From Branchiostoma floridae (Eukaryota; Chordata; Leptocardii; Amphioxiformes; Branchiostomatidae), in the NCBI RefSeq assembly GCF_000003815.2, contig NW_023365936.1, positions 124,001-188,000 of the forward strand: a stretch of 64,000 nucleotides of DNA, written 5' to 3'. Positions 19,711-54,017 of this stretch are shown one piece after another. The notes below the pieces were generated by a model, which saw only the letters and a program-made list of their open reading frames with translations, was not told where the DNA came from and ran no database searches. Position numbers and translations under genes: made by a program. Each line of letters opens with the position of its first letter. The first letter of the stretch is position 1.

Positions 19711-22700
19711 TTAGTTTAAATCCGACGTGTCCACGATGATTTTTAAGAAAATCGCATCGTCGCGGACGTAGGCATGGCGTGTACTCTCCAACTGGCTGAG
19801 GGGCATAAACAGTGGACAGCCACTTGCAATATTCATGTCACTGGTTGGGCGCTTGAAAGATGAACTGGTTGGATCAGGGCGGAACGCATCGATCACGTGC
19901 TCACGGTTGTTCTGGTCCAGGAGCATGAAGGTCACCTTCTGACGGAATGGCCAGCGCAGTAACCCATCAAAGTGCCCCCTCATCAGGACGAAGAACAGGC
20001 TGATGTGGCTGCCCTTCCCCATCCCATCACCGTTCAGGTAGATGCGTGCACACATCTTATAACCTGTACGGCTGGTGTAGAAGCAGGGGGAGTAGATGGA
20101 TGTTGTCTTACCAGTGATGGCGTCATGTCGCTTTCTTGTGAAGTCTTGGATCTTCCAGAGGAGAGTGGCATCGTAGGATGTCATCTCCAGGGATGTGATT
20201 CGGAGATCCTGCTCAGCAAGGGCCACGTCTTTGAGGGCGATGATTCTCTCCTGGGACTTCATCTTTCGCTCAATGGACTCTATGATTTCTCTGTCCTGGC
20301 GCCGCTGCCTCTCATATGCTTCAATGGTAGCAGAACACTTCTCAATCTCACGATTGAGAACTGCGACTATACCCTCAAAAGTAGCGACCCTAGTTTCCAT
20401 TGCTACATACTTATGCCTCATTTCTTCCTGCTTACTAGCCATCTGCTGAATGCGATTTTCAAGCAACTTGGTTACCTCTGATGAGGCAGAGCCTGAGGCT
20501 CCCCCAACCTGTGATGCTGTGTTTTCCAAAGCAACAATCCTGTCAAACAGTGTCTTCATGTCTGCATCCATCTTGCTGACTGCCTGCTGCATGTGTTGAG
20601 CCTGTGGGTTCTGTTTCAGGAGGTTTACCTTTTCCATGAGAGTCAGATGATTGTCTAGCAGGTGGTTCAGGTGATCAACATGGTTCTTGGCGATGTGGTC
20701 ATTCAGTTTCTCACGTTCCAGCTGTGATGATAAACAAGCTTAGATAGCAACCATACAAAGAACTGAAATGAAAGTTACAGAAATTGAAACATAACAAACT
20801 ATAAGATTAAGAGTTCTTGTTATCTGTAAATGTTAGGGAGATATTCATCTATAGGTACATGCAAGTTTAAGATGATTGATTCCTTTCAGTGACTTAATTT
20901 CTTAATTTTCCAACATACCTTTGCCTGACATCCGACTTTAGCAAATCTGCAGGCTACTTTCAGCCTTTTACAATCTCCGGTGTCTTCATCCTGATGTTGC
21001 TGCAACTGTAGAGAGGATATTTCATTGCAATGATATGGACATATCTCAACTTAACTGTTAACAATAATCAACATACTTTCAAGATCAAGAGAAGCAAGCA
21101 GATTATATTTGCCGAGAACCTGAATTCCACTTGGTTAAAAAAGCTTCTGAATCAGTATGTTAAAAAGTACCACACCCCCACCCCCCACAACAGCCTGGAG
21201 GTCATGGGATTAGGTAGGTATAAAACTTGATTGATAAACCCCACTTACCTGGGCCCTTGGTATCTTCTTCTTCCCACAGAAGTCACAGTTCACGGGGACT
21301 TGAGGGCATATGAAAAGATGATCCTGCATAAAAGAGGTATTTCCTTGAAGTTAAACCTGTACATGGAACATGCATCTACTTGTATTGTGATTCCTGAAAT
21401 ACATGTACATAATTTTCAAATATAAAGAGGACTACATGTTAGATAGAACATGAACAAATCACAGTTTTACAATGATTTGTATGGTGACTTCTCCACCATG
21501 AATTCATGTCCCCACACTTCAAATACAATTGCATTTGTTTCCATTGCATTACTACTACTACTGTACTTAAGAATTGATTAAACCATGGCCATTAAACACA
21601 ATGGAAAACATCAAAGTTCTTACCATGAAATAAAGTCTTCACAATTAAGTGAACTTAAGTCCTACAAAGATAAGTGATATGACCTTCAAATGTTACCTTT
21701 TCATCCTTCAGCAGTATTTCCTGTGCACAGTACTTGCACTTGACTTGTCTGACAGCACACTCCTTCTCCAGATGTGCAGCAAGATCCATTCTCATCACCT
21801 GTTTGCCACATCCTTGCTTTGGACATGGGATTAGGACAAACTCACATGTCTCTTGGTGTTCCTGGACAGTGGGGAAGACATACACATTGTCTTCTTAAAG
21901 AGAAGATTTCTCTAGCACTCTAACAAAAAGTTTGGAAACCTAGATTTTATCAATCTTATCTCCTCTATTAATTTTAGTATTATTCAGTTTATTTTAAACT
22001 TGATTTATTACCCTTTTCATTCATACGAAATTTGTCATGATCCTACATTTAAGGGTCAAATACAAGAGCTGACTATGCAAGTGTGTCATAAAAACAAAAT
22101 GCGGACATTCCTCTCCCAAACAAAAACACAGTGTCTGAATTTGGCAAGAGAATTATGTCCCATTCCTTGGGCAATCAAATCAACATCAGTCATTGTAGTT
22201 TGTACTAGGGGTGGGAACAGGTAAATTGTGCCGGTGTGACAGCCGGGGGGCGAGATCACTAGCGTTCTCGCCCCCCTTTAGCATTTTCGCCCCCCCCCCC
22301 CCCCAAGAGCAGCTGGTTACTACATATTACAGGTGCGCTACCTGGTACTATACTGCACCTGGGGAGTAACGTATATGGTGTGTTACCTGGTACCTTATGG
22401 CACCTTATTACCGTACCGTAAGATGCCTGTCATACCTCGAAAGTCGATACTATATTGTTCGGTGCAAACATGACATTGAAATGAAAAAGACAATTTTTGC
22501 AGCTGAGGTGGCATAAAAACAGTGCTACTGCGAACGTATAAATCAACACCGTCTATGGTACGGAATACGTCAGCTATATGTTTTCAATTTGTCACAGTGT
22601 TTTCTTTCTTGTGCTGGAAACATTTCCAAAGCACTAACAAAAACACACGTGAATGATAGTTTCTCATTATAAACACTATCTACGCGCAAGTTGATATAGC

Positions 22701-25700
22701 TGTTGCTAAATGCTACACAAACACTGGTAAAGTACCAGTCTTAAGAAACACGGGTAAATGCATCAGTTCCTAAATACTAGAAAAAACAGTCATGTTGGAG
22801 GTGAAGATATCCCTTGGCCAGGTGCATATACCAAAATGTGCGTTATTCTAATTAATACCTAATATTTGCATAATTAATAAAGACATTACATAGTTCTTTT
22901 GTGGTCACTTCATGGTAGAGACTTCATATTGGAGATATATAGGTTGCTTGAGGACAGGTGAATACAATGAAATACATCTTATGTCAAGACTCAGGTAATA
23001 TGCAATAATGGGAATACAAGGGACCCAACCTCCTTGTCTGAAACAAGTTCAACTATCTTATTACCATGTAATTACGTTACTATTGATACTATGAATGGAG
23101 CTATGTATCAAACTCGTGTACTTATATCATTCTGAAACTGCATTTTGTGATTTATACCAATCAACTTCTAAAATGTCATGTAAACCCGTTTTGGGGGGGG
23201 GGGCGAAATCGCTAAAGGGGGGCGAGGTAGGGGGGCGAGATCACTAGCCGGGGAGGGCGAGATCGCTAGCGATTTCGCCCCGGGGGGGGGGCGAGATCGC
23301 GGGGGGGCGAGATCGCTGTCACACCGGTACAAAAGCTTTTTTTCTTGGACCAGTCCCCAAAAAATAAGACCTGAAAATAAATCAGTGGGCCGAATTTTGG
23401 ACCGGTTAGAAAATGAACATATTACACAGACTCAGTATAATCAGCAGGCATTCACGCATTTTGGTGCTTTGGCAGTTAAAGAAAATAACAAGAGTGAAGT
23501 AGAGTTCATAGTAATTTCTACCAAGCTTCTTCAGTCAAACGTACCAAGGAAGTTAGCCTTGTTTGCATGAAGACCTAGGATTTTAAAAAGCCAGTGGGAG
23601 TCGGAGACTTCACCAGACAGATTGTAGCGAAATAGACCATTGTTTTTAGTATCACCAATTCAAATGTTTCACAATCAAGTCCAGGTTCAGGTATGTGGGA
23701 CTGACCTGAACCTGATCCTCTGGACCTGAACCAGACCTGGATTTTTTGTACCGGTGTGACAGCGTTTTCGCCCCCCTTTAGCGTTTTCGCCCCCCCCCCC
23801 CAAGAGCAGCTGGTTACTACATATTACAGGTGCGCTACCTGGTACTATACTGCACCTGGGGAGTAACGTATATGGTGTGTTACCTGGTACCTATATGACA
23901 CCTTATTACCGTACCGTAAGATGTCATACCTCGAAAGTCGATAATATATTGTTCGGTGCAAACATGACATTGAAATGAAAAAGACAATTTTTTCAGCTGA
24001 GGTGCCATAAAAACAGTGCTACTGCGAACGTAAAAATCAACACCGTCTATGGTACGGAATACGTCAGCTATATGTTTTCAATTTGTCACAGTGTTTTCTT
24101 TCTTGTGCTGGAAACATTTCCAAAGCACTAACAAAAACACACGTACGTGAATAATAGTTTCTCATTATAAACACTATCTACGCGCAAGTTGATATAGCTG
24201 TTGCTAAATGCTACACAAACACTGGTAATGTACCTGTCTTAAGAAACACGGGTAAATGCATCGGTTCCTAAATACTAGAAAAACAGTCATGTTGGAGGTG
24301 AAGATATCCCTTGGCCAGGTGCATATACCAAAATGTGCGTTTTTCTAATTAATACCTAATATTTGCATAATTAATAAAGACATTACATAGTTCTTTTGTG
24401 GTCACTTCATGGTAGAGACTTCATATTGGAGATATATATGTTGCTTGAGGACAGGTGAATACAATGAAATACACCTTATGTCAAGACTCAGGTATATGCA
24501 ATGACGTTAATATTGATACTATGAATGGAGTTATGTATCAAACTCGTGTACTTATATCATTCTGAAACTACATTTTGTGATTTATACCAATCAACTTCTA
24601 AAATGTCATGTAAACCCGTTTTTTTTTGGGGGGGGGGGCGAAATCGCTAAAGGGGGGCGAGGTAGGGGGGCGAGATCACTAGCCGGGGAGGGCGAGATCG
24701 CTAGTGATTTCGCCCCGGGGGGGCGAGATCGCTAGTGATTTCGCCCCCGGGGGGGCGAGATCACGGGGGGGCGAGATCGCTGTCACACCGGTACCCACCC
24801 ATATATACATGGTACCCATTGCACAAAAGAGTGATCATAAGAAATGAGTTATCATTTTAAATGAAATAAACAAGCTTGCCAATGGCATAACTCATAATAT
24901 GAAGTCCTGGCAGTTCTTTTGACACCTATAAGTAAACCTAGGGTTCAACCCATAAATGTACGAAAATAACAAACAGAAAAAAAATTGCGATGGCAATAAA
25001 CAAACTTTCCAATGATGCATAACAAAATGGAATTGATACTGTAACATTATGATATTTCAAACTTAAGTTTCCAAACTGTTTGTTTTAAGTTTATATTTAA
25101 ATACCAGAATGTTACTCCCTTTCCAGTGTCATACATATACATATCTTACCAAAAAAATCCATTATGAACTTCATAGCTTGATGGATATTTCAAACTTTAA
25201 ATCAGAAGCCAAGATCAATGGAACTTTGTCCCTCATACAACTAGAAAGGTCATGAATAAATTTAAAAGAGCACAAATGGTTAACAAGCGAGCTAAATGTG
25301 GTAGTTTCTAATGCGGCCATTCCATTATGAAGGGATAAAAAAGAGAAGTGATTAGGCTTGTAAGCATTATCCTGAAAGCAATTGTTAGCAAATATTCAGC
25401 AAAGGCAAATGATAGAGAAAGCTGCTCACACAAGGAAATGTTCACAACCTGGATGTCTCTATTCATGCATTATGGACTAATACTGATAGTAAAAACAAGT
25501 CATGTTCAAGTGCAAACTAAATGACATGCAACACATGCAGAAGTACCGATCAATGCACTGAACAAAAAAAAGTCATAGAAAATCTGAAGTTTAAGTTCCA
25601 TAAAGGTCCATTTCTGAACCTCTCATTCAGTTGCCTTCATGTCAGTTATAGTACAACTTTGGCAGTGATATAGTGTTGAAGGCCATGACTGTTTTGTTTT

Positions 25701-28700
25701 AATGCATCCTGAAGCAAACAATAGACACTCAATATGTCCTGACATCACACACGTAAACAAGAATACAGACCAATTGGGGCAACAAAGGAAGGTAAAAACG
25801 GTTGGTCACAGACAAATTATTTTCATACAAAAAGGCATGACAGAAGAACAGGATACGATCAATGAGAAGTAATGCCAAAGTTGATTTTTAGCATGTGCAC
25901 TGACATGATAAGAAGTACATACTTGTACAGCCCTGAATATCAAGCAACATTGTAGAGAAAGGAATTTTTGGGTGTTCTAAACTACGAATTGGTGTTACGA
26001 ATTCATGAAAGTTTTAAGATGCCATAATGCTATTGAATACAAGTTGCACTTTATTAGCAAAATGTGGATGTAAATATATTTGGTTGATTGTGTTGCTTAT
26101 AGACCAAATAACTCAAGGGTTCAATCGTTAATCATTTGTGTTTGAATTCACTTTATGTTTATTTGGATGGTGGCTTCGACTAAGTTAGAGTTTCCAATAA
26201 AATCTTTGATACACTAATTGGCTGTTTTCTGGATGTAACCTTCTTTGTTTTTTTTGGATTGTTTTCATGTTGGATAGTTAGGTTGAATAGGATTAGAAAA
26301 TAATAATCCAGATTTTTGTGTTGTGGGAAAGATGTGGTCCCAGAGCAGCTTTCTTTGAAACCGTGGCCATGTTGATTTGATTATATGAATGAAATCCTCT
26401 GGGAACCCCAGAACTGATGTGAGCTTTTTATAATATGTTTAGGAAGTTTGAACAAATGACCAGCCTCACTGCACTCACATAGTATCATACTATATGGAAT
26501 ACCTAATAATACATTCTTCAGTTTTGTTCTTTCACGTTATCTTCGTTGAATCTGAATTGACTTTTGGCATTCTACAACTGTCATATAAGTATCCATTTTA
26601 ATATATTTTGGTCGCAATTTACCGTATTTACGGTATATTTGCTCATTTTGCAGCTGCCTTGTTCAATTTTCAGTATGTTTTTAATTTTTTTGAAAAATTG
26701 ATGCACTTGCAGATGTCATCCACATAATCAAGTTGACATGGCCTAGCTGCAGATTACAAGCTTGTATATACAATAGAGAACATCATGCTGCTTGAGGGTA
26801 TCTTTCCTATGCTTTTCCGTGTACTTCTTTTATTCTGTGGCTAAAAATTCTTACATTTAAGAACAACCCAGATTACATGAAATGGTGAAAGGACACAGCA
26901 AGATTATATCATGCTTCAGGACACAGGAGACCAGAAAATATTTGGAAGAGAGCAAGCAAAAGTCTTTTGTTTGTCTTTGAATATGGTATGGAAGCTACCT
27001 TTGATTGCCATTCTATATGCTGGTGTTTCAACAATAAAAAAAAAGGACTTTCCCTTTCCCCTATAGAGGAGGGATGATGGAAACATCATGTGCATAGTGG
27101 GGGCTTGTTACTGCTGTCACAGCAGTGTTGAATACCCACTCAAAACTAGGACTGCATCGTCCTCAGAAATAAGTACATATCACCATGACTGTACCAGAAC
27201 AAGTGACGGCACCCCGCAGGTCTCCTACACAACCAGGACCAAGGTAGACATTATGACGCGCTCCGAACATTCTCGAGACATCGACTGCTTCATAGGACCT
27301 CAAAGGCCTGTACCTGATGGATAAAAGTACTGGCCATGGAAAGACAACATTGGCAGTTGTTATGTTGTTATTGGCAGCAGCAACAACTTGGTAGGTAATT
27401 ATGCTCTACCAGGTGTTTTGCCTCAACATACCAAAACATATCAATCCCAAAACTGTATAATGTACACAACATCTGTGGAGTCCCTTTACCGCTCAGCCTG
27501 CCTGGTTGCCATCAGCAATGGCGTTGCAGCATTGTTCAGCTTGATGAGTCTCTGCTCTCTCTGGCAACAGGGTTGGCTGGACACAGCAACTTCCCACTGG
27601 AATGTTGAGCCTTGGGAGAATCACCTCAAGGATGTCTTTGTTGCTTGCCTTGAAGTATCAAGCACGTTGCTGGTTTTCAAATAGGAGAACTTCGGGGATG
27701 AAAGGTTGTGCATGGCATATCCTGCTTGCCAAGCTTGGCCCCTTACAGCTCCTTGCACCTCTTGCCTTGTACTACATGTGGATCCTTGAATAGCAGACCT
27801 TTGGGGATGTTGCCTATTCCAGTCATGGCCCATCTACCTTCCATGGCAAGTTGGCAGGGGCAAACATCTGTGCTATTGCCTTCTTCAAGCTCATCTTGAA
27901 GCATCAAGCCTCTTGTTTTCTTCATGTTCCCTGAATGACAGAGCTTTGGAGATATGAAAGGTTGCGCATGTTCCAGACATACCACCTCAATCTGCTTGGC
28001 AAAGAAAAACCTCTGTGTTGAGGTTGATGTGATGTATCTATCTGATTCTCACCATCCCACAGAGACCATTCAACAGCAAACAGGATGTCTTACGCCTTTC
28101 TAACTGTGTGTAGTCAACATTGATAGAAGAGCTTCTTATCTGTCTTGTAGCTGATGGATATGCCATCCCAGCTGTTATGTTGAAGATATCACCAAGCATG
28201 ACTATGAAGGTTATGCTGATGAGTGTTGGCAACAGGACAAAATCTTGCTTCACTCCATTGGTCCATGGGAAGGCTGCTGATGTTTCTCCACCATCAACCC
28301 TAGGCCTCAAGCCAACTGTCATTGTCATGCCATCATGAAATGAAACCAATGGTTTTATGAATAAAAACCATGACCAATCATCCCATATTCTGTTGAAACT
28401 GAAGAGTGCACAACAAGCTGTACAGCTTCCCTGGCAGTCAGCTTCACTTTTGTTATGTCAAGCAGGGCACTGCAACTCTGTAGGATTGTCTCTCATACCA
28501 GAACCAGAACTGGCCATCAAGCCATGACTCTCCCCATGAAGTTTGAGCTAGGTGGTTCTGCATCCCTTGGCCTGGTGAAACAATAACTAATCCAATAATG
28601 TGGAATTACCCGAATTCAAAAATTCCAAATAGGGCAGTGTACCTGAACATGTACCAGTAGAACAACATCAGTCCAAAATACCACGGAACATACATGTACG

Positions 28701-31700
28701 TGTACATGTACATGTACCTGAACAAACTTTTATTATACTCATTGTAGAACACAACTTTTACCAGCAATACACGATGTTGTTACTAAAACATGTTAACTGT
28801 TTATTCATCTTTCTGTCATCATTGAAGACCACAAGTTACACGTACATTGCCAAGTTGTTCAGGTACAGGTACGGGTACACTTCTTAACCAGAACCTGTAA
28901 TAGTGTAAAACCTCTGTGCAGAAGTCCATAACTGATGAAAGATATACACTGATATACAGTCGTAAAAACATTAAAAGGTGATGCAGCACCATTGGTCTAT
29001 AGGGAAAGCCTTGGGGCCTCATGACATGTGCAATGTTAGAAATGTCAAGACAGACTATGGTACCACTGTGAATAAAGAAGCACTGATCCAGTCAAATATT
29101 CAACAGAAGAATGTATACTCTAACCATTACTATGCAAATATCTACATGAACTTACTGTATAGTAATTTATTTATAAGAATATATAGTGGTAAACTATTTA
29201 TGGGTATGTGTAAAAGATCAAAGATGATTATCTTAAAAACAGCAATGTCCACTAATTGTTAGGGGAGGCAAATAAACACATACTTTTGTTGAAGTGTTTT
29301 CTTTTTAAAGATTTTTTGATGAAGTTTGAGGTTCCTGAAATAAAACGTTTCTTCAGCTGACTCAGATATGGACGGCAACATTTATGAATGTTACATTTAA
29401 TTCAGTGGTTACATTAGTGTCCTACCATTATGTGTGCTGTAGCATTATACTACCAACTAAATGACTTAAGATTTCAAAATCAAATCAAAAGTAGCAGATC
29501 TACAAAAATGTATATATTTTACAGGAAGTAACATATGAACATAGACAGACTGTACAAACATACAGATTGGGAAAGTTATGAAAGTTAACTTTGAGTAGAT
29601 AATGGGTATATACATCATACAAAGGCAGAACTCAAACACATGGTTACATGCAAAATTGTATGTTCTAATGGCAAAAGTATCACATTTAATGTTTTTTGAT
29701 ATTTCACCTCCAAAAATTGAATTTCAAGGTTGTGATCATAATAAATTCACCTCCAAAATTGAATTTTTTAGACACGTCACCTCTAAAATTGAAGCTTTCT
29801 AGAGATCACACCTCCAAAATTGAAGCTTTGTAGACATTTCACCTCCAAAATTGAAGCATTCTAGACATTTCATCCCTAAAACTGAAGACTTCTAGACATT
29901 TCACCTCCAAAATTGAAGTTTCCTCTAGAGACACTTAACATAAAAAATTGAGGATATCTAGTAGACATTTCACAGACATTTCAACTCCAAAATCTTCTGG
30001 ACTTTAAACCATCAAAATTGAAAGTTTCTAGACATTTTACCTCCAAAACTGAAGGTTTAAAGATGGCTCGCATCAGAAATTGTAGGTTTCACCTTTTCAC
30101 CTCCAACTTTGAAGGTTTTTAGACATTTCACCAACCAAATCGAAGTTTTCTAGACCATTTCACATCAGATTCTGAAATTGAAGCTTTCTAGACATTCAAA
30201 ATTGAATTTTTCTAGACATTTCACATCCAAAAACTGAACTTCAAGGTTTCTAGACTTTTCACCTAAATGTCATATTGAAGGCTATTGCCTTTAAAATGGA
30301 TGGTTTCCAACTTTTTCATCTTAAATCTTAGATGGTGTAGATAGGTAATTCTACTGGTTGTTGCATGTAGATATCTTGAGACCTGTCACTACTTATTAGG
30401 ATAAAATTCCAAGCCTATTTCTTTTAAGAACAAACATTAAAATATTTTTCAAACCTGTTAGAAGAACATACCTTTTCAGCCCCATCCAGATTTTAAATGG
30501 TTTCAAATCTTTCATGTTTTACTTACATCATATTGCTCCGCCTTCCCTTTCCACTCACACAGACCTGCGTTCAGACACTTAACTGGCAGGTCTCCAATGT
30601 CTCGCTTGATAGCTCTATCCGGAAATGCCTTGATTCAAAATAAAACACAAATGTTATGACTTTGGATAGAGAAAAGTGACATATAAACACTGACTTAAGG
30701 CAGTACATGTAGGCTAATGGGTAACAATTTAATAATTTGGTACCAAAATTATGGCTTGATTTTCTGTATAGTGACTGACGTGTGTGATAAGTATACTGCT
30801 TGACATATACTAATAGTATTAAGAAAATACACTGAAATAGGAAATAGCCCCCAAAATATACATTTTCAGCCCTTTTCCTTCACCTACATGTACCACCTGT
30901 CCACCTTTGATGTGATTATCAGAATAATGTCTGCAATGATTGCAGTATCATGGATCTGATATCATTATTTGACGTACCTTCAAATTGCAGTTCGAAATTC
31001 TGCAATAGTTTATGTGTTCCTCAATAGCAGTGTGCCTGATGGTCTTGACTGCTTTGCTGCGCTCCTCTGACATGAGATGCCACCATATTGCTTTGCATTG
31101 TATTTGTTTATGTTTTCATTAAAATATTTTGTCTTCTCAACTCTTGCCGGAGAGAAGACTGCAATGTCAGACTTTGCTAAACTATTTTCAAGAGTTTCCT
31201 GTTGCTATACTGTACACTTTGCATATGCTTTCTTAAAGCTGTTCCAAGACATGACATGGATTTTCTTCTTTCTGTGGTCACCAAGGCAACAATTCATCTT
31301 TAAATTCAAAATTGCTGACTGAAAAAGAGACATTTATGATGGCAAAGTATTGACATGCACATAATGCAATGCACACATCACAGTCAAATAGATGAGTTAT
31401 ACCAATAATAACATTAGTATATTTCTAAATACACTGTGTTACAATCTGTTCTTCAGAGACATTCACAAGTGTTGGTGTACACAAAAATGTAATGGTGGTA
31501 TAACCTGGTACAATGTATATAATAGTAGTCTTCTTATTTTTCAAAAGTTGGTACACATGCAATTGCGAATCCTTTGAATTCCCTCTATTTTGCAACATTT
31601 GAGATTTATACCTGCTCTCTCTTTAGCATTGAATCTTCTGACTGCACATCCTGTGGGCATTGTTTGCACATCTGTATATCTGGAAGGCTGTAAATAGAAA

Positions 31701-32441
31701 ATATAGACCTGAGTAACAAACAATCAATGGAAAATAGTTAATATAACATTTCACTAAAGAAAGCAAACTGATTGGTCCAGATTCTATCAGGTACCTGATA
31801 TATATAGATACAAGTAATAATATCAATAGAAACAATAATTAATGGAATGTACGAATGACTGAATCTGAGGAATTTGATTAAAACAATCGTTAAGAAATCA
31901 AATTTTTATGAACTTAGTTTGTATGACCTAAATAGTGGCAGATATACTCAATGCGGCTCAGACAAAATTTGAAGAAGCTCCAGACACATGACAGATATTC
32001 CTCTGTGAACTGCTCTCCAATCTGAACTAACACTAGGAAAATGATCTCAGTTGTTCCATTAACTTTTATACAATGTGTATTAAGGGCATGACCATTTTTA
32101 ATTTAAGGTAATGACATGCATATGACATAAATGTAAATATTTGATGTCTTGTATATATGTCATTGTATTTGTGAAGTCCAGTGCCCCTAGGGCAAGTGAC
32201 TAATAATCTAGATTCAGATAAAGTCTCAAGTCTCCTCTTCAAACAGGTGCGCCTCATCATCACACTTTTTTTTTATCGTGCTGTGAATAATTACGTACTC
32301 GAAGATTTCATCCAGACATGATTTGCAATAGCGATGACCACAGTATGTCTGGAAGGGTTCCCGGAGAACAAGGCGGCATGCTGAGCACAGGTACTTGTCT
32401 TCTACCCTGACTTCAAAGATTTCCCGTGAGTATCCTGGCAT
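19711..32441 (-). CDS. TRAF2: TRAF2-like signalling adaptor / RING-type protein
   Basis: Eight exons: 32441-32299, 31687-31612, 31064-30978, 30628-30527, 21861-21697, 21323-21249, 21005-20919, 20721-19711, giving 581 residues (human TRAF2 has 501). Residues 19-58 form a RING with C19, C22, C34, H36, C39, C42, C55, C58. TRAF-type zinc fingers span about 103-245 and include [11 protein letters not shown], as in TRAF2. A coiled coil occupies about 274-425. The TRAF-C (MATH) domain runs from 428 to the end, and pieces such as [17 protein letters not shown] are close to vertebrate TRAF2. The receptor-peptide pocket looks intact: R and Y in RIYLNGD and the serine run in TSSSF are present. The start is the ATG of MPGYS, just before the RING; a non-coding first exon is likely because an acceptor (CATTGCAG) lies 14 nt upstream. 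The family links TNF receptors to NF-kB and JNK signalling in the cytoplasm. Confidence 0.93.
22228..23330. mobile_element. TIR element with G-rich ends, copy A
   Basis: Ends are GTGCCGGTGTGACAGC and its mirror GCTGTCACACCGGTAC. The body is 1.1 kb and non-coding. The right end carries a cluster of GGGGGGCGAGATCGC-type units in both orientations with several G runs. Copy B begins 418 bp further on in the same orientation. It lies in the long intron of the TRAF2-like gene. Confidence 0.85.
23748..24794. mobile_element. TIR element with G-rich ends, copy B
   Basis: Perfect 16-bp terminal inverted repeats GTACCGGTGTGACAGC and GCTGTCACACCGGTAC. The body is nearly identical to copy A over about 1 kb but lacks a segment of about 90 bp that copy A has near 22998-23090, and its right end has an extra GCGAGATCGCTAGTGATTTC unit. 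The sequence suits a Tc1/mariner-like or other TA-targeting non-autonomous element, but the class is uncertain. Confidence 0.88.
26365..26743. mobile_element. Inverted-repeat element, GGCCATGTTGATT family
   Basis: The left end reads GGCCATGTTGATTTGATTAT and the right end mirrors it as GGCCATGTCAACTTGATTAT in reverse complement. About 380 bp, AT-rich, non-coding. A related element is at 50166-50514. It lies in the TRAF2-like intron. Confidence 0.65.
27480..28350 (-). pseudogene. Decayed LINE reverse-transcriptase fragment
   Basis: On the minus strand near 28349-28180 the frame contains [15 protein letters not shown] and [16 protein letters not shown], which resembles the conserved reverse-transcriptase stretch of non-LTR retrotransposons. 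Downstream the same strand, with shifts and stops, resembles the C-terminal part of such proteins (for example RIHM and RGARSCKG near 27800). It is clearly inactive and lies in the TRAF2-like intron, in the sense orientation. Assignment to a LINE clade is not possible by eye. Confidence 0.55.
29690..30260. repeat. Degenerate 31-bp minisatellite
   Basis: About 18 diverged copies of a 31-bp unit related to TAGACATTTCACCTCCAAAA followed by TTGAAG and a short T-rich spacer. Three neighbouring units near 29820-29915 keep the 31-bp period exactly. It lies in the TRAF2-like intron just downstream, in the direction of transcription, of exon 30628-30527. Confidence 0.85.
30978..31064 (-). other. Possible optional exon of the TRAF2-like gene
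   Basis: This 87-nt segment encodes 29 residues including [19 protein letters not shown], placed between the RING and the first TRAF zinc finger. It is phase 0 at both ends, so the transcript reads in frame with or without it (581 or 552 residues). The in-frame acceptor is the second AG of CAGAG; the more usual-looking CAG two bases earlier would break the frame. Vertebrate TRAF2 has no obvious match to these residues, so it may be an insertion or an alternative exon. Confidence 0.55.
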
Positions 32442-33861: not shown

Positions 33862-36195
33862 TTAAGGTATTTTGGTTGGCTAAATACCACTGCAGTGAAA
33901 CTATGTTTTTCATGTACATAATGATGGTTACAAACTCACGGTTGCGCAAACTGATATCTACTAACGATCTGTAGTTACAGTGGAATTCGCTTATTTGGAT
34001 AGCTCATTTGTCAGCGCATTTTATCCAATAGTCCGAAGTATCCAACAGTCCGAAGTTGGGCCACTTAGGACCGAAGGGACACTACACACACGATACGGAA
34101 CTTCATTTACAAAAGACCCACAAAACTTTTTACTCAGACATTTGTTCATCTAGAACAGTAGTCTAAGGTCTCATTCCTGTATTACTCCGAGTGTAGAGTC
34201 TAAAGGAATCCGGGCGAAAAAATTATATGGCCCGCAAAGCGTTGTTTTAGGTGGACCATAAATTCCCATTAATAAACCATAACTGATATGAAAAGGAATT
34301 TAGATGAAAGCTTGTGTATTATTGGCATGATCATGCACGAAAGTTTCGTGACCCGATCGATCCTCGGACGTTTACGTTTATTTGTACTGAAAGCTCCGGT
34401 CAGGCCCCGGGTATTGAAGACGACCTCTAGCGAATAGCGGCTAGGTGCATTTTGAAATGTGATAGAAATTGTTGCGTCGGCTAGATTTGGGTGAAAATTT
34501 TTTTATTGTCTAACAAACGTGTGTGCTTACAATAGAAAGCAAAACATCTCCAAATAGACTGTGTTTTAATTGGATTTGCGGACATAGAAGCTGTGTGTTA
34601 AAGCATTGAATTCAATGGGGCGATCTAATTGTGTAATGAAACCCTAAGCAGTAGTTAACCTACAGTACTGCTTTGAATGAATGGAACGTCAACTGTTTGA
34701 ATCTATAACATCATTTAATAGCCAGCAAAATATCGAAGAGATTCCAGTTACAAGCTTTACATAATTATATGTTCCGATATTATACAATTTACGTGCGGTG
34801 ATAAATCTAATAAAGATTTTTAAGTCGGTGGCTAAATGAACATGTAGAAAAATACGCTTGACTTGCACTGCCGAGGGCATAACTAAATGAACCACAACAA
34901 AGACAAACACAACTTCGCTTGTATTGGCCGGAAAAAATCATGTTGATTTCGTAATTTTGAGCAAAATGACGGTACGTATTGGAGAGATAAACTCTTCACC
35001 TTCTTATTTACATCTTGTGTCCACAAACTACGCTGAAATTTCAAACTCGACGCCGTCTTTCGCGGTGGAAGACGGAAAAAATCAATGTCAAAACATTTAA
35101 GATGGCGTCGCAGCGTGGGTTGAGATATCCCACCATTCAATGCGGCTGATTGCGACATCACAGTTCATTGACCCTGTTGCATTACGTGCGCTGCAAAAAT
35201 CTATGTAGCGCAGCCGAAATCAGCTCAATAATGAGACAGTGGCTATGTAAAACACATTTTTTTGTAGGGTAAACCAAATTTAGACATTGTTTGAAGGCGA
35301 AATATGAACTCAAAAGCGTGTTGACGTCCACCCATCATGCCTTGCAACCTACCAAAATGGCGCCTGACCAAATGTTCGCGCGCTTCCACAGCGGTATCGG
35401 CAAGATTTTTGGTGGAATCTACCTTTCTTTCGGTCCTTTTCATGATTCTATAGCGCCCTCATCTGGCTCAAGGTAGGTACTGCAGGATTAGGGACTGCTG
35501 TGTCCAAATCAGGGCTGTCTCCAGCTTAATTTTTTTCCGTCCCAATGAATTGCTGATTTTCCTGGTTAAGTATGTCATTTTAAGTATATGCCTTCATACA
35601 TACAGTTGTTGGTTAATTTTCACCTCATTTTGTAAGTTATAGCGTATATTTTCCCATTTTTATTCGATAAACGTTGACATAATCCTATCCAAAAACCCGA
35701 AGTTTGAGATGGCGGGTTATCCAATTCTGCGATGTCTTAAACAATAGAATGAATGGCAAATGGTTTGGGATTTCGCAATTCTATACAATTACCCGAATTA
35801 TCCAAATAGGCGTAATATGAATAATTGGAATCAACTGTATTAAGAATTAATTTTTTCTAATTACATGTAGATGAAAACAAACATTTTCTAATTACTACAG
35901 TTCATTAGTAGATATCAATTTGCGCAACCGTGAGTTTGTAGCTTTCATCATTATGCAACGAAAAACGAAGTTTCATTACAGTGGTATGTACCAAAGTGCT
36001 GTATTTTGTCATATAAATAAATAATATTAGGGGCAATAAAAATGATGACGTCATCAATTTGGCCCCCAAAAATCAGATTTAGAATTCTTTCATGGCCATC
36101 TATCAACAGTCATTACGGCTTCATTCTTTCTTAATTTATCAATAAGAAAACAGTGGAAGGTCAAAATGCCAATTTAGCCAACCGAGATACCTTAA
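33862..36195. mobile_element. Foldback structure with arms about 115 bp or more
   Basis: The left arm starts TTAAGGTATTTTGGTTGGCT and contains CAAACTCACGGTTGCGCAAA and GATATCTACTAA before 33977. The right arm, read in reverse complement from 36195, starts TTAAGGTATCTCGGTTGGCT and contains the same two blocks in the same order near 35970-35910, with an extra segment of about 180 bp. A pogo-like element sits between the arms. Confidence 0.7.
33978..35837. mobile_element. Pogo/Tigger-like element nested in the foldback
   Basis: The left end CAGTGGAATTCGCTTATTTG and the right end, in reverse complement CAGTTGATTCCAATTATTC, are imperfect inverted repeats bounded by TA on both sides (33976-33977 and 35838-35839). 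The left end resembles the known pogo end CAGTATAATTCGCTT. Inside are further matches such as TTATCCAATAGTCCGAAG and AACCCGAAG. No transposase frame is visible in the 1.86 kb. Confidence 0.6.
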
Positions 36196-42026: not shown

Positions 42027-42081
42027 CATCCTCCTGCGCAGGGACATCCAACGGCGTTGGATGTCCCGGCGTAGGAGGATG
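42027..42081. mobile_element. 55-bp hAT-like mini-MITE with 8-bp target duplication
   Basis: An almost pure palindrome starting CATCCTCCTGCGCAGGGAC and ending GGCGTAGGAGGATG. It is flanked on both sides by GGTAAATT (42019-42026 and 42082-42089), an 8-bp duplication as made by hAT transposases. A longer relative is at 56147-56414. Confidence 0.85.
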
Positions 42082-44059: not shown

Positions 44060-44196
44060 AATATATATTTTATATATATATATATAACATATATATGCTA
44101 TATAATATAATGTTTTGAAATATATGATATAATATATAATCATATGTATATATTTTACACATATAGTCATCTTTAATATGTAAATACATCATGTAG

Positions 44197-44265
<69 letters not shown>
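44060..44265. repeat. AT and GT microsatellite
   Basis: TATATA runs at about 44060-44165 and 44197-44225, followed by (GT)n to about 44272. No coding content. Confidence 0.95.
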
Positions 44266-44268
<3 letters not shown>

Positions 44269-45094
44269 TGTGCATGTCAGCAACACATTAATGTATGATT
44301 CTAAACAATACCTTTGTATGACTGTCTGATACAGCTGCAGCGTACCTCGCTGTCACCCTCTTCATCTTCACTGAGGTCCATTCGAATTCTATACACAAAA
44401 TGCTCACCAGACAGTCAAATACGATCGATCATGAATTCTGTAATCATAACACCGGGGTCCTGCAGTTCTGGGTAAGAACAATAAAATCACAAGAACAATA
44501 TAGATTACAATTCATCGCTCGACAATAAACGAGTAAGACTTAACGTTACCTTAGCCTTAGGGTTATTTCCACAGCTACGACGGTTGCAGCCAACTGGCAA
44601 CTGTGCAAAAATCAAACAAGAATAACTCTTGAGAGATCGCAACATCACATACCGAAGGTGACTCATAGCTTGGAGACGTGGGGAAAATATGTTCGCCAAG
44701 TCCAAGATGGGCCAAATCGTTTGTCATGCCCACACGTGCTCAACCGAGGCGTTTCCACAAGACGCCATTAGGCAAGTTACACACAAACTTGAAAGCTTCA
44801 TCACGATACCTACGTTTCATATCTATGCGCTACTTTTCTGCAGAACGATCATTAGAACCAAATGTGATACATACATGACTTATATTTCTTTAAAACTCAC
44901 ATAAAATCAATTCAACTTGAGAAGTTGAAACCTTACGGATTTTTGGAGGAGTGAAAATGTAGTGGGACTACTTGCTGTCCGCCATGATGGAATCCTTCCG
45001 AGCTTAACAACTGGCACTGGACGCTATAGGAACACATGTTCAAGACATGTGGCGTGATGTGATTGGCCAAGATTTCAAGGTATATAGATACGAT

Positions 45095-46350: not shown

Positions 46351-47136
46351 TGACCTTTGACTGACAAGGCTACTTCTCGCGAGAAAGTCCGAGACGTAGA
46401 TATCCCACTGGCCTTTGCGCGAAAATCCCCCTATACCTAACTTTCAGCTGACGCTATCTTCTCAGAAACAATCCAACCAAAGATGCCAATAATCTAACAA
46501 AGTAAATAAATCGATATGATTATGCAATAATCATACTGCCTGTTCCACAATCATCGACATGGTGAAGGACACCTGTCAGATTGAATTCGAAGTCTGGGCT
46601 ACTGGCATGCTAGCGTTACAGTCTGAACACGAAGGTGTTAGATTTCTAACAAGGCATTTACGGTTGTATGGAGGTTGGTTCTGTATAAGACCGACGCTAT
46701 AATGAAGATACTTCTGATAAATAGACGACCCTGCACCCCCCCCCCCCATAAAATAAAAGCCTGGCCATGTCTGCGAGCGAGGGAGGAAGGTCATTCTCAT
46801 CCATGCACTCTCTACAAAATTTAGCTGATATCCAACGTACTGTAGCGGCGAAACTCCCTGCATGTGTCTTCGAATTCGCTATAAAATGTGGATTCCACAT
46901 CACATTTTCCATATGACGTGCTACTGGAGCAGTGGTCGACTTTAGCCTTCAAATAGAACAGATCACTATATCAATAAAAGACCGTGAGAGACAAACAATG
47001 ACATAGGTCTCAGGCTGACCCCAATGCAAGTCATGGGTTAAGCAAACTTAATGGCTAAACGTCACTAGCCCACACACTCGCTGATGCTCTTACATTCAAT
47101 CACGCAGAAGTCACATGAAAACTGTCATGTGATCAT

Positions 47137-47270
47137 GTGTGTGTGTGTGTGTGTGGATGTGTGCGTGGATGTGTGCGTGTGTGTGTGTGCGTGTGTGTGT
47201 GCGTGTGTGTGTGCGTGTGTATGTATGTGTGTGTGCGTGTGTGCGTGTGTGTGCGTGTGTGTGTGTGCGG
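47137..47270. repeat. GT microsatellite
   Basis: (GT)n interspersed with GC and GGAT variants. The Cys/Val-rich frame reported by translation here is an artefact of the repeat. Confidence 0.95.
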
Positions 47271-47949
47271 CGTTTTGTGGAATATTAAAGGTTGATTTCA
47301 TGTTTCATCAATCATGATATAATGAGCCAGTGGTCCTGAGAAAACAGTCGAATATACATGTATCAGGTAACATGTATATATATCAGGTTATATATCAGGT
47401 GCATATAAACTCCAACTTCACAGTGTGGTTGCTATCTGTATATCTAAATGGCTGCACCTTGAAAATCACAAGACTTGCAGATTAACAATATGACACCCAA
47501 TATGGTAAGCACTCATGTACTCTTAGATTATTTTCCCTTCCTTTTAGTCTTTTTCTTTTTCTTCTCGGATCAAGAAAGAACATCTGATTCAGAAATGTTG
47601 TATCTTTTTCTTTATTTCAAGCAAATTTCTGGACAGTTAAAAGAACGAATTCCACGTGTACATCATGCTAAACGTAGCATTCATTCGTACTTTAAAAGCT
47701 TTCTCAGAGTGCGAAATACTTTGAAGTGATTCATTTTTTTCCAAAAGCAACAGCAAAAGAGCAAATAACCAGAATTGCAGTCCAAAGAAGTTTGTTGATT
47801 GTCTATACCTGTGTTTTCGTACTTTTCAGTACAGTAATTAACAGTACCAATGCTTCATCACTACGGAATCCACAACTCTACTGTTATTCTACATTTCTGT
47901 CCACACGAATGTTACTTCGTTTCACGGTTTGTTCAAATTCTAAATCTGA

Positions 47950-49563
47950 TCACGGTTGATTGATACGCTGGTTGGTCACGGTTGCCTGATAGTCCATGGT
48001 GTCGTCCCTGTCTGTAGTCTGTACTGGATATGCCACATGCCTTTCTGTGAAACCAAAATGAAAGCACAGTGAAGCGTAATCATGACAACTTGATCTGAAT
48101 ATTCTGTAAATGCAGAAACGTTCGCGGTGGTTTAATGTTCGAGGTTTTCGCGGTGGCCGCTTCACCGCAAACTTAAAGCCACCGCGAACATTTTCATGGC
48201 AGTAAGAGTTCAGGGTGCTACCGCGAACTTAAAACCACCGCGAACTTAAATGCATTTACAATAATGCTTTGTAATGCTTGATATCTTTTAAGTGTGCGAC
48301 AGAGATGCACTCAATACAAATAAAATGTGACTTGAAGTAACAAAAAAAAACACCAAACATGATATCAAATGATTGTCGTGGTCATTACATTATATTTACC
48401 TTGATACCCCCTCCACGCATAGACAAGCACAGCCAGGATTGACACGAAGGCGATCACAGAGGACACAGAGATGCCAGCAATCACGGCTACACTTAGTCCC
48501 TGTTTGGCTGAGAGTGAAAGAGCACATTTACACTTCTTAGTAACTGTTACGGGCGTATCTGAGACTATAAATAACATTTTACGTGATGTGTACATTCGAT
48601 AGTGATAGATATTGATATCCAATTTTGTCTGAGCAATTTAACGTGTTTTGGGGATATGCAACTTGCTAAAAACGGTGAGCAAGATACAGTAATATGTAGA
48701 GGGTGTTTGTGTACTTATTCTCACTGATACACAGGAAGGACATGGTACACACTAGGTGATAGTAGCATTTGATAAAATGCCATAAACAGTCATACCTCAA
48801 ACGAGTTTATAGATGATGATAGACGGTCCCTACCTAAACACTTGCTACAGATGCTGGTATCAGGTGCACTGTCACACACATCACACTCTAGACAGTCACT
48901 ATTGATGGGCTCCCATTCATAACCAGGAGGGCAGTTGTAGACAGGGCCAGGCGTCGGTTGTTCATTCGTCATGGCATCTACGAAAGTCCAATACATAATG
49001 AAAGAACATAATAAACACCATTTTGAGATAAGTTGTCTTCTTTCTCTTACTTTTTTTCAGGCGGTGGGGGTGGGGGTTACAGTCTGACCCAACATCCTTC
49101 CAAGTTCAGACTCAGAGCGTAGCAAGACGTCTGTACTGGCTGCTAAGGCCAATGTCAAATACATCTTGTCTAGGTACCATACTCGGTAGTTGTCACTTTC
49201 TGTCACTGATCGCTTGTTTGATGGTACCCAGGGTAACTTATCCCTAGCACTATAGACCACTGATTTTGTGCCTATTGCAATATCACGTTATAAAATCATG
49301 TGTAAAGTTCGCTAGCTTGTAGAAGGGCAAATACTAAGTATATGAAAACAGCTGTAAAATTATTTGATACTATATATGGATAGTCAATTACCTCGGCAAG
49401 ATTCACAGATGGGAGTGGCGGGAAAATCTTTGCACACGTCACAAGGTACGCAGTCACTGACGACTGTGTCCCAAACATGATCTACGGGGCAGGTGGTTGT
49501 TGCTATGGCGACAGTCGCCATGAAGACATATAGTGCAGCGGTGGATGGTACAACACCTCTCAT
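47950..49563 (-). CDS. TNF-receptor-like protein with two Fn14-type cysteine-rich domains (paralogue 1)
   Basis: Four coding exons, all introns phase 1: 49563-49392, 48977-48834, 48507-48400, 48044-47950, giving 172 residues. The start is the ATG of MRGVV; the in-frame codon further upstream is TTG, and an acceptor (CTATTTAG) at 49606 implies a non-coding first exon. Residues 1-22 look like a signal peptide. Two cysteine-rich domains (C25-C56 and C73-C104) each have the spacing C-x5-W-x6-C-x2-C-x2-C-x8-C-x2-C, as in Fn14/TNFRSF12A. A membrane segment spans about 110-136. The 36-residue tail contains PVQTTD (148-153), which fits the TRAF-binding patterns PxQxT and PxQxxD. A type I membrane receptor that signals through TRAF proteins is inferred. 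Human Fn14 has a single such domain and 129 residues. Confidence 0.88.
48100..48263. mobile_element. TTCGCGG-family MITE, copy 3
   Basis: Lies in the last intron of receptor paralogue 1, between the membrane and tail exons. It starts TATTCTGTAAATGCAGAAAC and ends CTTAAATGCATTTACAATA, with the AACCACCGCGAACTTAAA block near its right end. Orientation is opposite to copy 1. Confidence 0.8.
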
Positions 49564-50165
49564 GTTGTCCTTGTCGGCTCCTACTGCAGTCTCTATTTCC
49601 AAATTCTAAATAGAAATGAGAATAACTCAACCTAAGCTGATAACATACACATGTTAACAACGGAAAGTATGTTGCATGGTAGAATTACGGATTGTATATC
49701 TCATATTTCTAAGGCGGTCTTCTTTTCAAAACCGTCATTGAATAACTGTTCATTTTTTTGGCTGACGATGTGTCCTATAAACTTTATAATACATGACTGC
49801 ATATTGCATCAGCCACACTATAGCCACAGCAGCATACAAAGGTCATAATCAGGTATAGGGGAATCCCCGTGCCCAGCTGACTGCTGTCACGTAGTCAGTA
49901 AAACTTTTCAAACCTATCCGCCCGTGTATATTAAATCATTTCTGACACGGTATGCAAGGTTGAAAATTAAAAGTCATATATATCTACGCTAATCTAAGGA
50001 TTACTGTGCCATTCTTACGAGGAAAACTGTCGAGATTATATGAGTCTATATGCACCCAACAGGTACTTATGCCTTCACAATGGTTTGCCACGACCGTCCT
50101 CGATCAGTCAGCCAGTAAAAAGGGCGAACTTTGAACACACCTAGCCCGCATGCGCCTTGATTAAA

Positions 50166-50514
50166 GGCCATGTTGATTTGATTGGATGACATCTGTGTGC
50201 GCATCGATTTTCGGCCGTTTCCAAAAATAAATATAAAGGTTTTCAACCATACTGTGAAGCAACTATATGCCGTGGATTGAAAAACAAATATCGGGAAACG
50301 GATACTAAATATTCCAAGGTGAAAGAACCCAAAATGAAGATTTGATTGTTCGGTGTATACTATATTCTGTGTGTACAGTGACATGTTCAACCCTTCTAAC
50401 CACTTAGATTTCATAATGAAGGCAACTTTTTTTGTCAAACTTATTTTATTCGCACGCTCGCATTAGTTTTTGGGCCCCAGAAGATGCCATCCATATAATC
50501 AAATCAACATGGCC
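50166..50514. mobile_element. Inverted-repeat element, GGCCATGTTGATT family
   Basis: The left end GGCCATGTTGATTTGATTGG is mirrored on the right by CCATATAATCAAATCAACAT followed by GGCC. About 350 bp. Same family as the element at 26365-26743. Confidence 0.7.
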
Positions 50515-50740
50515 TTAGTGCACGTAACAAAGGTGTGGTGGGTAAAACTTTGAAAGTATTGTAAACACCTCTAGCGATCGCGCGAGTTACGTGCAACTGG
50601 CAGCCAAGGAAGGGAAAGGGAAACGGATACTGATATGCTGGTAACGTTGTACGATTAATGTTCTTGTCTCTGATTGATAAATGTTTGCTTCGAAGCGGCT
50701 TGGCTTTCTTTATTATTACCTCTGAATGAATAAATATAGC

Positions 50741-50832
50741 CTGGGTACCATCTGATTACTACCGGGCTCCTTACAATTCGCTGCCTTATTTTTCAGGGAA
50801 AAGCCCCGGTAGTAATCGGATGATACCCAGAT
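50741..50832. mobile_element. Short hairpin element
   Basis: CTGGGTACCATCTGATTACT and CCGGGCT on the left pair with AGCCCCGGTAGTAATCGG and ATGATACCCAG on the right, with three or so mismatches. About 90 bp in total, with a loop of about 30 bp. Confidence 0.6.
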
Positions 50833-51884
50833 TAGAATAAATGCACATGAGTCAAATCAGTTTATTGTTACTTTATTTTCCGTTGCTTTTAAACAGTTTA
50901 TGCACTGCAATATTTCAATATGAGCAAGACAAACAGAGAAAAGAAGTATTAGATATTGCAAGTATTGCGGAGGGCCTAGCAATTTCAAACAGGCACAAAA
51001 AGCTGGGAAAAATTACATTTGTAATTCTGTCTAAAGACGAACGCAGATTAGCTTGGTTTGGTAGTTTGAAATAAAGGTGAAAAGGCTACCAGGCGAAAGA
51101 CACTTCAAAGTCGTTTATATTTACTCAGTGAACTTTAACGTGGAACGTTTAAAAAAAGCAATTCACAGATATTAGCTGACACACCCTTAACTTGAGCTAG
51201 AAACTTCATACAACGGAGATATGATGGGAGTAGTAGCTATACTATACACTGTCCTTGGCCAACAAAAAATGGAACATTGTTAAAACGTATATACGGCTCA
51301 AATTCCATTCAGACTCATAACAGTTAATCCAAGAATACTAAACGGTAACAAAGTTTTACTTTTTCTAAAACTCTAACTCTGCCGAGTATGCCTAGTTTGT
51401 GTAAGACTTGTGCAACATATACAGTAACCCTATAAGAATATATGTCTATAGACTATCTACTAGGCATCCATGTAATGACTTTCACAAGATACATGTTCCA
51501 CTTTAATATATCACTAAGAGAGAAACAGACATAGAGATGGAGTGGAGAGAGATATTTCATTCCTTGAGGTTAGCTCGAGGTAATAAACATCTCTTAAGGT
51601 GGTATACGTATAACTTGGGGCACTGGTGCGGCACTGTGGGTTCCGTTCACTTCGGCAATGTTTTGTTATTTTCGCCGATTTTTTTTTATAATTTAGACAT
51701 TATTGCGTAATACGTAAAGGTATGACTTAAGAGACAACAAAATACACAAAACGTAAGAAAACTCGTTCTTCATATCTGAAATTCGTTGAGTCATCTACGA
51801 ACCCCGCAGTGAAGCACCGGTGCCCCAGGTGCAATGAGATACCACCTTTGTGCATACCGCATACACCACATCCTTACTAGTGTA

Positions 51885-54017
51885 CTACACAACAGTAACT
51901 CGTTCGAGTATTTGGCCGCCAGCATGACCAGGTGATATTTCACGGCCGGCCGTTTCTTGTATCGGCATCTTCAGTTTCTCGTCACCTGTGGCAATTAAAC
52001 GGAAATATCATATAGTCATCAATGTAAACCGCGTTGATTGGCTTTTCCAAACGGTTTTAAATCATTGCGCTCAGCATTGGCATCGTCTGTTGCCTCTTTA
52101 CTTTGGATAGAATAGCAAGGCCCACTTTGTTTCATAACATGTCATATAATATGTATTCCACAAATTACAAACATCAACACTTTGGTGTTCATCATCCATG
52201 AATATTCATTCGTCACCTTACATTTATATATATTGGTCACATCTTAAGAATGGCTGGCACACTTTGATTGGTCTATAGACTCTACATTAACCAATTTTTA
52301 GGTTGAGACAAAGTATCGTGAGATTTTCCTTACATTAAATGGAACGATAATGCTTAAGAATACAAGTCCTGCTACTTATACATACCTCTAATTACCTTCG
52401 TCAAGAAGGTTGTGATTTGGTAGCGTCTGTATCAGTGTAGCGGTGTAACGTTAAGGGTGTTGTGTGTGGTGGTGTACCTGTGTCTGTGGTTTAACAGCAT
52501 ATCCAGAAGCTATGAATGGATTAATATGGAATTTCATTTGTAGTTTAGTCTATCAAAAAAATGGTTAGAACTTAGAACCTTGGCGGCTTCTCTTGGTACT
52601 GAGGGGAAACTATGCACTAACTCATTGGTAAAAGGTGGTGAATGAATGTTACCGACGCATATAAACTTTCAAGCTCATTTCTACATATGTGCAATATGTA
52701 GAAATGAGCTTGAAAGTTTATTTGCGTCGGTAACATTCATTCTGGATCGAACTTGAACGGTGATGTCAAAACTTGGACTGTCTTTGTAAAAGAATGAGAA
52801 ATCTACAAATTTGGTAATTCATGTGCTGGTATGGTCGAACTCTTGTTTGCTACATACAATGACAAATGCCTACCTTTTCCTGCATGCTTTCTGTACCAGA
52901 CGGCAGCAAGGACGAAACAACCAATAGCCAGGGCCGACGCCCCCAAGCCGACAGCCAATCCCAAGTGACGATACGGATTGCTTTTCTCTGAAACTAGGTT
53001 AAAAGCAAAGTTTTGTCCAATCTCACTTATCTGAATCAGACTTATCTTATCATTCTAGATGGAAACAAAGAAGTATAATTTACTTGTAGTATTGTGCGAT
53101 GTGATAGTATCATCAGTAAGTATTCTATCAAATTTTGAGACTAAATTCACATGGAACACAGTATTAAAGTGATTTGTAAAATTTATATAGAGTACTTAAC
53201 GTTACACAATAAATCGGAAAATGTATTTTACAATGGGATGAAACCAATCTTGACATTACCAGTGTGACAGTAGGGGCAAATAGATGTGTTCGGTGCGTCG
53301 TCACAAACACTGCACTCTTGGCAGTCCTCGAGGATATGGTTCCATCCCATCCCAGCCGGACACAAGTGGATGTTTTCACTAGTGTGTGGTTTCCCCGCGG
53401 TCGTGCCTATTGATGCGACATATCGTATTGTAAACTAGAGTTGAACACAGAATGCCTGCTTTTGAGACCTTATAAATCGCTGGTGTTATGATGTTCCTGT
53501 CCTACTGTAGATATAACTGGATTAAAGAATTCATGATCATGATTTTGGGCCCCCTGATGACCTTCCTTGGTACTGCAGCAGGACTTCCGGTTTTTGTATC
53601 TTTTGTTCTATACAAGCTTTGGTTTTTCTTTTTTGGCGACTGATAGCTCATGATGTCAGGAAGACGTGTAGCGATCCTCTGGCAATTTGTTTTGGAACTG
53701 CAGAAGCATTTTAGGTAAAATCTTTTGAAGAGAATAAATGAACAAAGGACCGACGGATTTCCATGATATCAATATGAGTACAGAAATAGATAAATTGTCT
53801 CCGTTGCAAACGTTAACTCACCAGATTGGGAGAGGTCAGAGCAGATCGACGTATCGGGCGCCGTGTCGCACAGGGTGTACGGCAGACAGTCCTCCAGTTG
53901 TGGGTCCCATCCGAAGCCGCTAGGGCAGATGGGAAGGGCAGGTGTAGTCGAGGTGGCAGCCATCTTGATGACAGCCTCACACATAACAACCAGCAAGATT
54001 GGGTTCAAGGTCGTCAT
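51885..54017 (-). CDS. TNF-receptor-like protein with one altered and one intact Fn14-type domain (paralogue 2)
   Basis: Four coding exons, all introns phase 1: 54017-53822, 53406-53260, 52987-52874, 51985-51885, giving 185 residues. The start ATG begins a signal-peptide-like stretch. The first cysteine-rich domain (31-62) keeps C31, C44, C50 and C59, but the third and sixth cysteines are Y47 and L62. The second domain (81-112) is complete: C81, C94, C97, C100, C109, C112. The membrane segment spans about 123-146. The tail contains MPIQETAGRE (159-168); PIQE fits the major TRAF2-binding pattern (P/S/A/T)x(Q/E)E and resembles the PIEET motif of Fn14. Exon layout and phases are identical to paralogue 1, which lies about 2.3 kb downstream on the same strand, so the two arose by tandem duplication. 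Ligand is unknown. Confidence 0.88.
52640..52742. repeat. Near-perfect 49-bp-arm hairpin in a receptor intron
   Basis: Left arm 52640-52688 and right arm 52694-52742 pair at 48 of 49 positions, with a 5-nt loop (GTGCA). Landmarks are GAATGAATGTTACCGACGCA on the left and TGCGTCGGTAACATTCATTC on the right. It lies in the intron between the membrane and tail exons of receptor paralogue 2, so it would be transcribed as a long double-stranded hairpin. Confidence 0.9.

Follow-up and report, generated by a model that had tools for sequence, protein, structure and literature searches.

A 64,000-base window of the Branchiostoma floridae genome (C378:124001–188000, C378 being the contig) carries a TRAF2-like adaptor gene and two Fn14-like receptor genes, here called R1 and R2, all on the minus strand. 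The tail of each receptor contains a candidate TRAF-binding peptide, and the adaptor has a peptide pocket closely resembling that of human TRAF2. We consider it likely, with a probability of about 0.65, that R1 and R2 work with a TRAF partner of this kind through docking at the TRAF-C domain; the partnership would not be specific to the neighbouring gene. A preliminary description of the window had reported a TRAF2-like gene and two Fn14-type receptors linked on one strand, and the coordinates, frames and Pfam matches that we obtained agree with it. The span concerned, 19711–54017, runs from the TRAF stop codon to the R2 start codon (positions are those of the window unless a contig is named).

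Splice sites were picked by eye, all of them GT-AG, and the gene models are predicted ones. The three genes yielded open frames of 552 aa (TRAF), 172 aa (R1) and 185 aa (R2), with the exons ordered and in frame within each gene, and the window contains no N. Genome searches covered 513,431,437 bases in 431 contigs. Human TRAF and Fn14 sequences, with the list and numbering of the pocket residues, served for comparison; the TRAF-C domain of human TRAF2 was also among the solved structures.

The TRAF2-like adaptor

The adaptor gene has seven predicted coding exons:

32299..32441, minus strand: coding exon 1, start codon (predicted) and N-terminal half of the RING (Pfam RING models)
31612..31687, minus strand: coding exon 2, second half of the RING
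30527..30628, minus strand: coding exon 3, first zinc finger region
21697..21861, minus strand: coding exon 4, TRAF-type zinc fingers (Pfam)
21249..21323, minus strand: coding exon 5, zinc finger with CGKKKIPR
20919..21005, minus strand: coding exon 6, zinc finger
19711..20721, minus strand: coding exon 7, coiled coil, which includes the cIAP-binding stretch, followed by TRAF-C (MATH)

The predicted protein scored above the Pfam cut-offs for PF21363 (29.9 bits, cut-off 26.9), PF02176, PF21355 and PF22486, which cover the RING, zf-TRAF and MATH regions. It also matched PF16673, the cIAP (BIRC3)-binding coiled coil, at 8.6e-18; this model matched human TRAF2 but not human TRAF3 (E up to 0.01). 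Against solved structures, its TRAF-C domain scored 273.3 bits with TRAF2, 259.5 with TRAF1, 248.5 with TRAF3 and 215.9 with TRAF5, and lower with a chain that has no name beyond 'TNF receptor-associated factor' (118.6), with TRAF4 (111.7) and with TRAF6 (75.4). Identity to the human TRAF-C domains was 69% for TRAF2, 65% for TRAF1, 63% for TRAF3 and 58% for TRAF5. The TRAF-N stretch matched TRAF2 and TRAF1, not TRAF3 or TRAF5, and a full-length tree (five rows, unrooted) set TRAF1, TRAF2 and the window protein apart from TRAF3 and TRAF5 (100/100). A TRAF3/5 identity was dropped on the full-length tree and the cIAP-binding model, although a tree of TRAF-C alone, taken up below, points the opposite way. 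The Pfam model TRAF2_zf, which represents the second zinc finger of TRAF2, did not match the window protein at E up to 1, whereas it did match human TRAF2; we therefore filed the gene as TRAF2-like, of the TRAF1/2 class, and not as TRAF2 proper. The long intron between coding exons 3 and 4 holds a direct repeat of about 1.5 kb (22293–24723), its pieces 93–100% identical.

Two receptors with two Fn14-type modules each

49392..49563, minus strand: R1 exon 1, signal peptide followed by the first Fn14-type module
48834..48977, minus strand: R1 exon 2, second Fn14-type module
48400..48507, minus strand: R1 exon 3, transmembrane segment
47950..48044, minus strand: R1 exon 4, cytoplasmic tail with PVQTTD, and stop
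53822..54017, minus strand: R2 exon 1, a predicted signal peptide followed by the first Fn14-type module, in which two of six cysteines are replaced
53260..53406, minus strand: R2 exon 2, second Fn14-type module, complete
52874..52987, minus strand: R2 exon 3, transmembrane segment
51885..51985, minus strand: R2 exon 4, cytoplasmic tail with PIQET, and stop

R1 (47950–49563) and R2 (51885–54017) have a common four-exon plan in which all introns are in phase 1. The preliminary description had given each receptor a single Fn14-type module; the identities and tail motifs stood, but each receptor has two modules, those in R1 exon 1 and R2 exon 2 having been missed, and the start of R1 is at 49563. 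In the window the strict cysteine spacing of Fn14, C12C2C2C8C2C, occurred three times, against none in 200 mononucleotide shuffles. R2 matched the Pfam model stn_TNFRSF12A at 2.5e-12 (47.7 bits, cut-off 24.9), and the modules of both receptors had 8–10 of 32 positions in common with human Fn14. No TACI match was obtained at E up to 1; beyond Fn14, only sub-threshold matches to Syndecan (R1) and CBM_14 (R2) appeared. We class R1 and R2 as Fn14-like and not as TNFRSF12A proper.

A blastn comparison of the R1 and R2 genes found no DNA similarity; their duplication is therefore probably old, and a recent one was dropped. A further Fn14-like exon considered at 46.6–46.9 kb was also dropped, no cysteine-spacing pattern being matched there. 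Directly upstream of R2 lies a perfect 183-base duplication with TA runs (54142–54507), either a recent event or an assembly artefact.

Tail peptides and the docking pocket

The cytoplasmic tails are about 35–39 residues long. The tail peptides PVQTTD (R1, 48010–48027) and PIQE (R2, 51954–51965) and the pocket motifs RIYLNGD (20026–20046) and TSSSF (19855–19869), all on the minus strand, were found as first described. In an alignment to the Fn14 profile, the R1 match ended with PVQ at positions 113–115, where human Fn14 has the PIE of PIEET, and PIQET of R2 fell within one residue of the PIEET place, as judged from the alignment ends. According to a review, PIEET recruits TRAF2 and TRAF5 (PMC7072601). 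The narrow motif P[IV][QE][ET]T arose in 0.095% (R1) and 0.025% (R2) of 20,000 tail shuffles; the broad consensus was not rare in as many shuffles, at 3.1% for R1 (PxQxxD) and 10.0% for R2 (major motif). A further PIQE at 5817, on the plus strand, is a chance occurrence. On the adaptor side, 17 of the 18 pocket residues are those of human TRAF2, and the remaining one, L432 replaced by F, is the same as in human TRAF1.

A tandem array of TRAF2-like genes

The linkage of one TRAF2-like gene with two receptors, as first described, held but proved incomplete. Searched with the TRAF-C domain, the genome showed 36 matches (E up to 0.001). C378 carries seven RING exons and nine TRAF-C places, which we read as seven TRAF2-like genes and two TRAF-C fragments in a tandem array, the receptors lying beside its end. 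The window gene and its closest sister (C378:60–64.5 kb) have TRAF-C domains that are 99% identical. A comparison of the two over 450 bases of TRAF-C gave a dS of 0.71 and a dN of 0.023, a ratio of 0.03, and the domain is therefore under strong constraint.

In the array alignment, with the window row included, the first five pocket residues were unchanged in 8 of 8 covering rows. For the other thirteen the figure was 7 of 8, two rows that extend beyond their exon at residue 432 being left uncounted, and a single D-to-N substitution is seen in the 30.4-kb copy. The pocket being almost unchanged across the array, neither docking specificity nor closeness singles out the linked TRAF as the partner.

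In the array copy at 21.7–30.6 kb, stops fall past the exon end. Two sisters have an altered RING, with a cysteine changed to serine at C378:115417–115554 (plus strand) and the CGH motif lost at C378:83429–83551 (minus strand); these are possibly adaptors without ligase activity. A TRAF gene at C9:21.376 Mb was tried as a copy of the window gene and set aside as a separate paralogue, with 86% DNA identity over 788 aligned bases.

Proposed mechanism and the points against it

In the scheme that we propose from sequence, R1 and R2 would be spliced and expressed as modelled, and a TNF-family ligand would cluster them. The receptors' tail peptides, P-[IV]-Q-[ET]-T, would then dock with a trimeric adaptor of the TRAF1/2 class by way of its TRAF-C pocket; the coiled coil of the adaptor would hold cIAP, and its RING and zinc fingers would complete the complex. 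The expected output is NF-kB/JNK signalling, as for human Fn14, and docking would take place in trans with several members of the array. One report gives 24 TNF-family ligand genes for B. floridae (PMC7674686).

Several observations weigh against such a partnership. Two cysteines are gone from the first module of R2. R1 reached only 4.4e-4 and 21.1 bits with stn_TNFRSF12A, under the cut-off of 24.9, and the family search of the genome with the Fn14 model did not report it. Solved Fn14 chains matched weakly (E 0.11 for R1, 0.0052 for R2). The TRAF-C-only tree (seven rows) put the window TRAF with TRAF3/5 (80/84), the branches of TRAF4 and TRAF6 in it being very long. A TNF ligand gene did not come to notice, the window not having been searched for one in full.

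Other Fn14-type genes in the genome

Searches for Fn14-type genes used R2, the Pfam family and a three-module protein as queries, R1 being covered only through the R2 and three-module queries. Fn14-type places were found at C5:19.978 and 19.981 Mb, C8:0.57–0.61 Mb, C17:12.98 Mb (uninspected) and C1:15.683 Mb. Of these, C8 and C1 did not come up in the family search, nor did R1; its output was limited to C5, one R2 exon and a doubtful C3 place. The two C5 receptors (C5:19977588–19978202 and 19980776–19981621) each have three Fn14-type modules in a single exon, and with 41.8 and 38.7 bits both pass the Fn14 model. CBM_14 is passed by one of them as well (24.2 bits, cut-off 22.1), and TACI-CRD2 by the other (25.3 bits, cut-off 22.9), a hint that Fn14 and TACI modules may share an origin. 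The C8 place is weak, the one module inspected scoring 13.7 bits with the Fn14 model.

None of the C5, C8 and C17 places lies near any of the 36 TRAF-C matches. One C5 relative, which is not TRAF-linked, has a candidate tail with PQEET, its splice site unproven, and the C8 and C1 relatives showed no TRAF motif in their tail exons. These findings weaken any special tie between motif and linkage.

A second neighbourhood on C1

The C1 place (C1:15682053–15683437, minus strand) is a single-module Fn14-like gene with a weak search match (E 0.21). Its module keeps the Fn14 spacing save for one residue, lacks the tryptophan and is flanked by phase-1 splice sites. It is accompanied by a transmembrane exon, again with phase-1 sites, and, upstream, by a plausible signal-peptide exon. 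The module has 8–11 positions in common with the R1 and R2 modules and 10 with human Fn14. It gave no Pfam Fn14 match and was not reported by the family search; a tail was sought and not found. Three TRAF-C matches lie on the plus strand (15.7023–15.7203 Mb, 72% identity), the first at a distance of about 19 kb from the gene. The C378 and C1 neighbourhoods may descend from one duplicated segment.

We estimated how often such pairs would arise under random placement, using 11 TRAF-C loci and 5 Fn14-type loci as lower bounds. C17:12.98 Mb was counted though uninspected, and C13 (E 1.1), C3:5.235 Mb (a stop) and C2 (five stops) were left out. The expected number of TRAF/Fn14 pairs was 0.0064 within 20 kb and 0.0096 within 35 kb, and that of a second pair, given C378, was 0.0036 and 0.0060, respectively, for a pair picked post hoc and with gene clustering ignored. 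The second neighbourhood thus makes coincidence less likely, though the C1 receptor is weakly supported.

Why the genes are neighbours

The linkage is probably the result of local duplication beside an old TRAF2 neighbourhood, not of a need for closeness. One could instead suppose, with the preliminary description, a selected receptor–adaptor cluster, in which linkage itself matters through shared regulation or the co-inheritance of matched pairs. Two TRAF2-like/Fn14-like neighbourhoods in one genome (C378 and C1:15.68–15.72 Mb) speak for this, as do the low expected numbers of pairs. So does the stretch between TRAF and R1: of 20 open frames (34.7–57.9 kb) tested for another gene, 17 fall within this stretch or on its border, and no Pfam family was over its cut-off, in a test that left out at least six open frames of at least 80 aa there. 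However, the estimate suffers from the post hoc choice of the pair, its lower-bound counts and its neglect of gene clustering; the C1 receptor, besides matching weakly, is oriented away from its TRAFs, which R1 and R2 are not; and the C5, C8 and C17 places are far from TRAF matches, with the candidate PQEET motif on C5. The near-identical pocket across the array, moreover, leaves no matched pairing visible. We regard a selected cluster as unlikely. A related idea, that an old Fn14-like/TRAF2-class neighbourhood was kept and re-used (C378, C1) and amplified on both sides, a chordate cluster having been broken up in the human lineage, seems to us just as doubtful.

A chance neighbourhood, with receptors that use other TRAFs or adaptors or act as ligand traps, would be easier to accept given many TRAF genes: a TNF receptor near a TRAF gene is then not very rare, and with generously assumed counts up to 0.07 such cases are expected. 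Evidence against chance comes from C1, with its second neighbourhood, and from the tail motifs, placed as they are at the Fn14 docking site; we hold chance to be quite improbable.

An assembly artefact would have the short contig falsely joining a TRAF array to the receptors, or would make it a redundant haplotype. C378 is only 195,875 bases long and has tandem repeats, with N runs at 36,157 and 72,126 only, outside the window; near-identical repeats lie in a TRAF intron and beside R2. On the other hand, the window is free of N, the exons of each gene are ordered and in frame, and neither R2 nor an acyltransferase exon has a close second copy in the genome, R1 being covered only via related queries. 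The acyltransferase, probably of the LCLAT1/AGPAT type, has exons at 58900–61850 on the plus strand (PF01553, PF16076). The one exon searched is unique to C378, and a paralogue at C1:13.42 Mb is 69% identical. C378 is therefore unlikely to be the spare haplotype of a placed region, and a second haplotype copy was dropped from consideration. We judge an artefact very unlikely. Local duplication remains our preferred account of the linkage, and docking in trans that of the partnership.

Other features of the window

A 79-base unit is repeated four times at 4139–4453 (97% matches). On the minus strand, 6712–8043 holds a highly charged 444-residue open frame with a CxxC...CxxC stretch, which matched no Pfam family at E up to 0.1.

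Significance and comparison with known systems

To our knowledge, TNF receptors and TRAF adaptors are not known as genomic neighbours. Yuan et al. (2009) reportedly described an expanded TRAF family of amphioxus. In the open-licence literature that we searched, which did not include that paper, we found no description of the TRAF/Fn14-like locus. A receptor–adaptor neighbourhood kept through duplication would bear on the co-evolution of signalling pairs. As the two- and three-module Fn14-type receptors (C378, C5) show, such receptors need not have a single module like human Fn14, and the origin of the Fn14 and TACI modules thereby becomes open to testing. Should the linkage be meaningless, the locus would still supply receptors and adaptors for peptide-binding tests in a basal chordate.

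Like vertebrate Fn14/TNFRSF12A, R1 and R2 have a predicted signal peptide and a single transmembrane helix, their short tails carry P-x-(E/Q)-x-T where PIEET stands, and three of their four modules keep the cysteine spacing; R2 passes the Pfam model. The two receptors differ in having two modules instead of one and in the low identity of these modules, and R1 stays under the Pfam cut-off. Among the small-module TNF receptors TACI and BCMA, TACI likewise has more than one short cysteine module, but R1 and R2 gave no match to it.

The adaptor resembles vertebrate TRAF2 (with TRAF1) in its RING, zinc fingers, cIAP-binding coiled coil, TRAF-C domain and pocket residues. It differs in being one member of a tandem array, in falling outside TRAF2 in the TRAF-C tree and in leaving TRAF2_zf unmatched; it also has 7 coding exons, whereas a listing for human TRAF2 gives 11 exons (PMC7179693). 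For B. belcheri, a TRAF2 is listed as up-regulated after poly(I:C) (PMC5752451). The array also resembles the expanded amphioxus TRAF family, with many TRAF genes in one lancelet; 24 TRAF genes are given for amphioxus in one report (PMC7179693).

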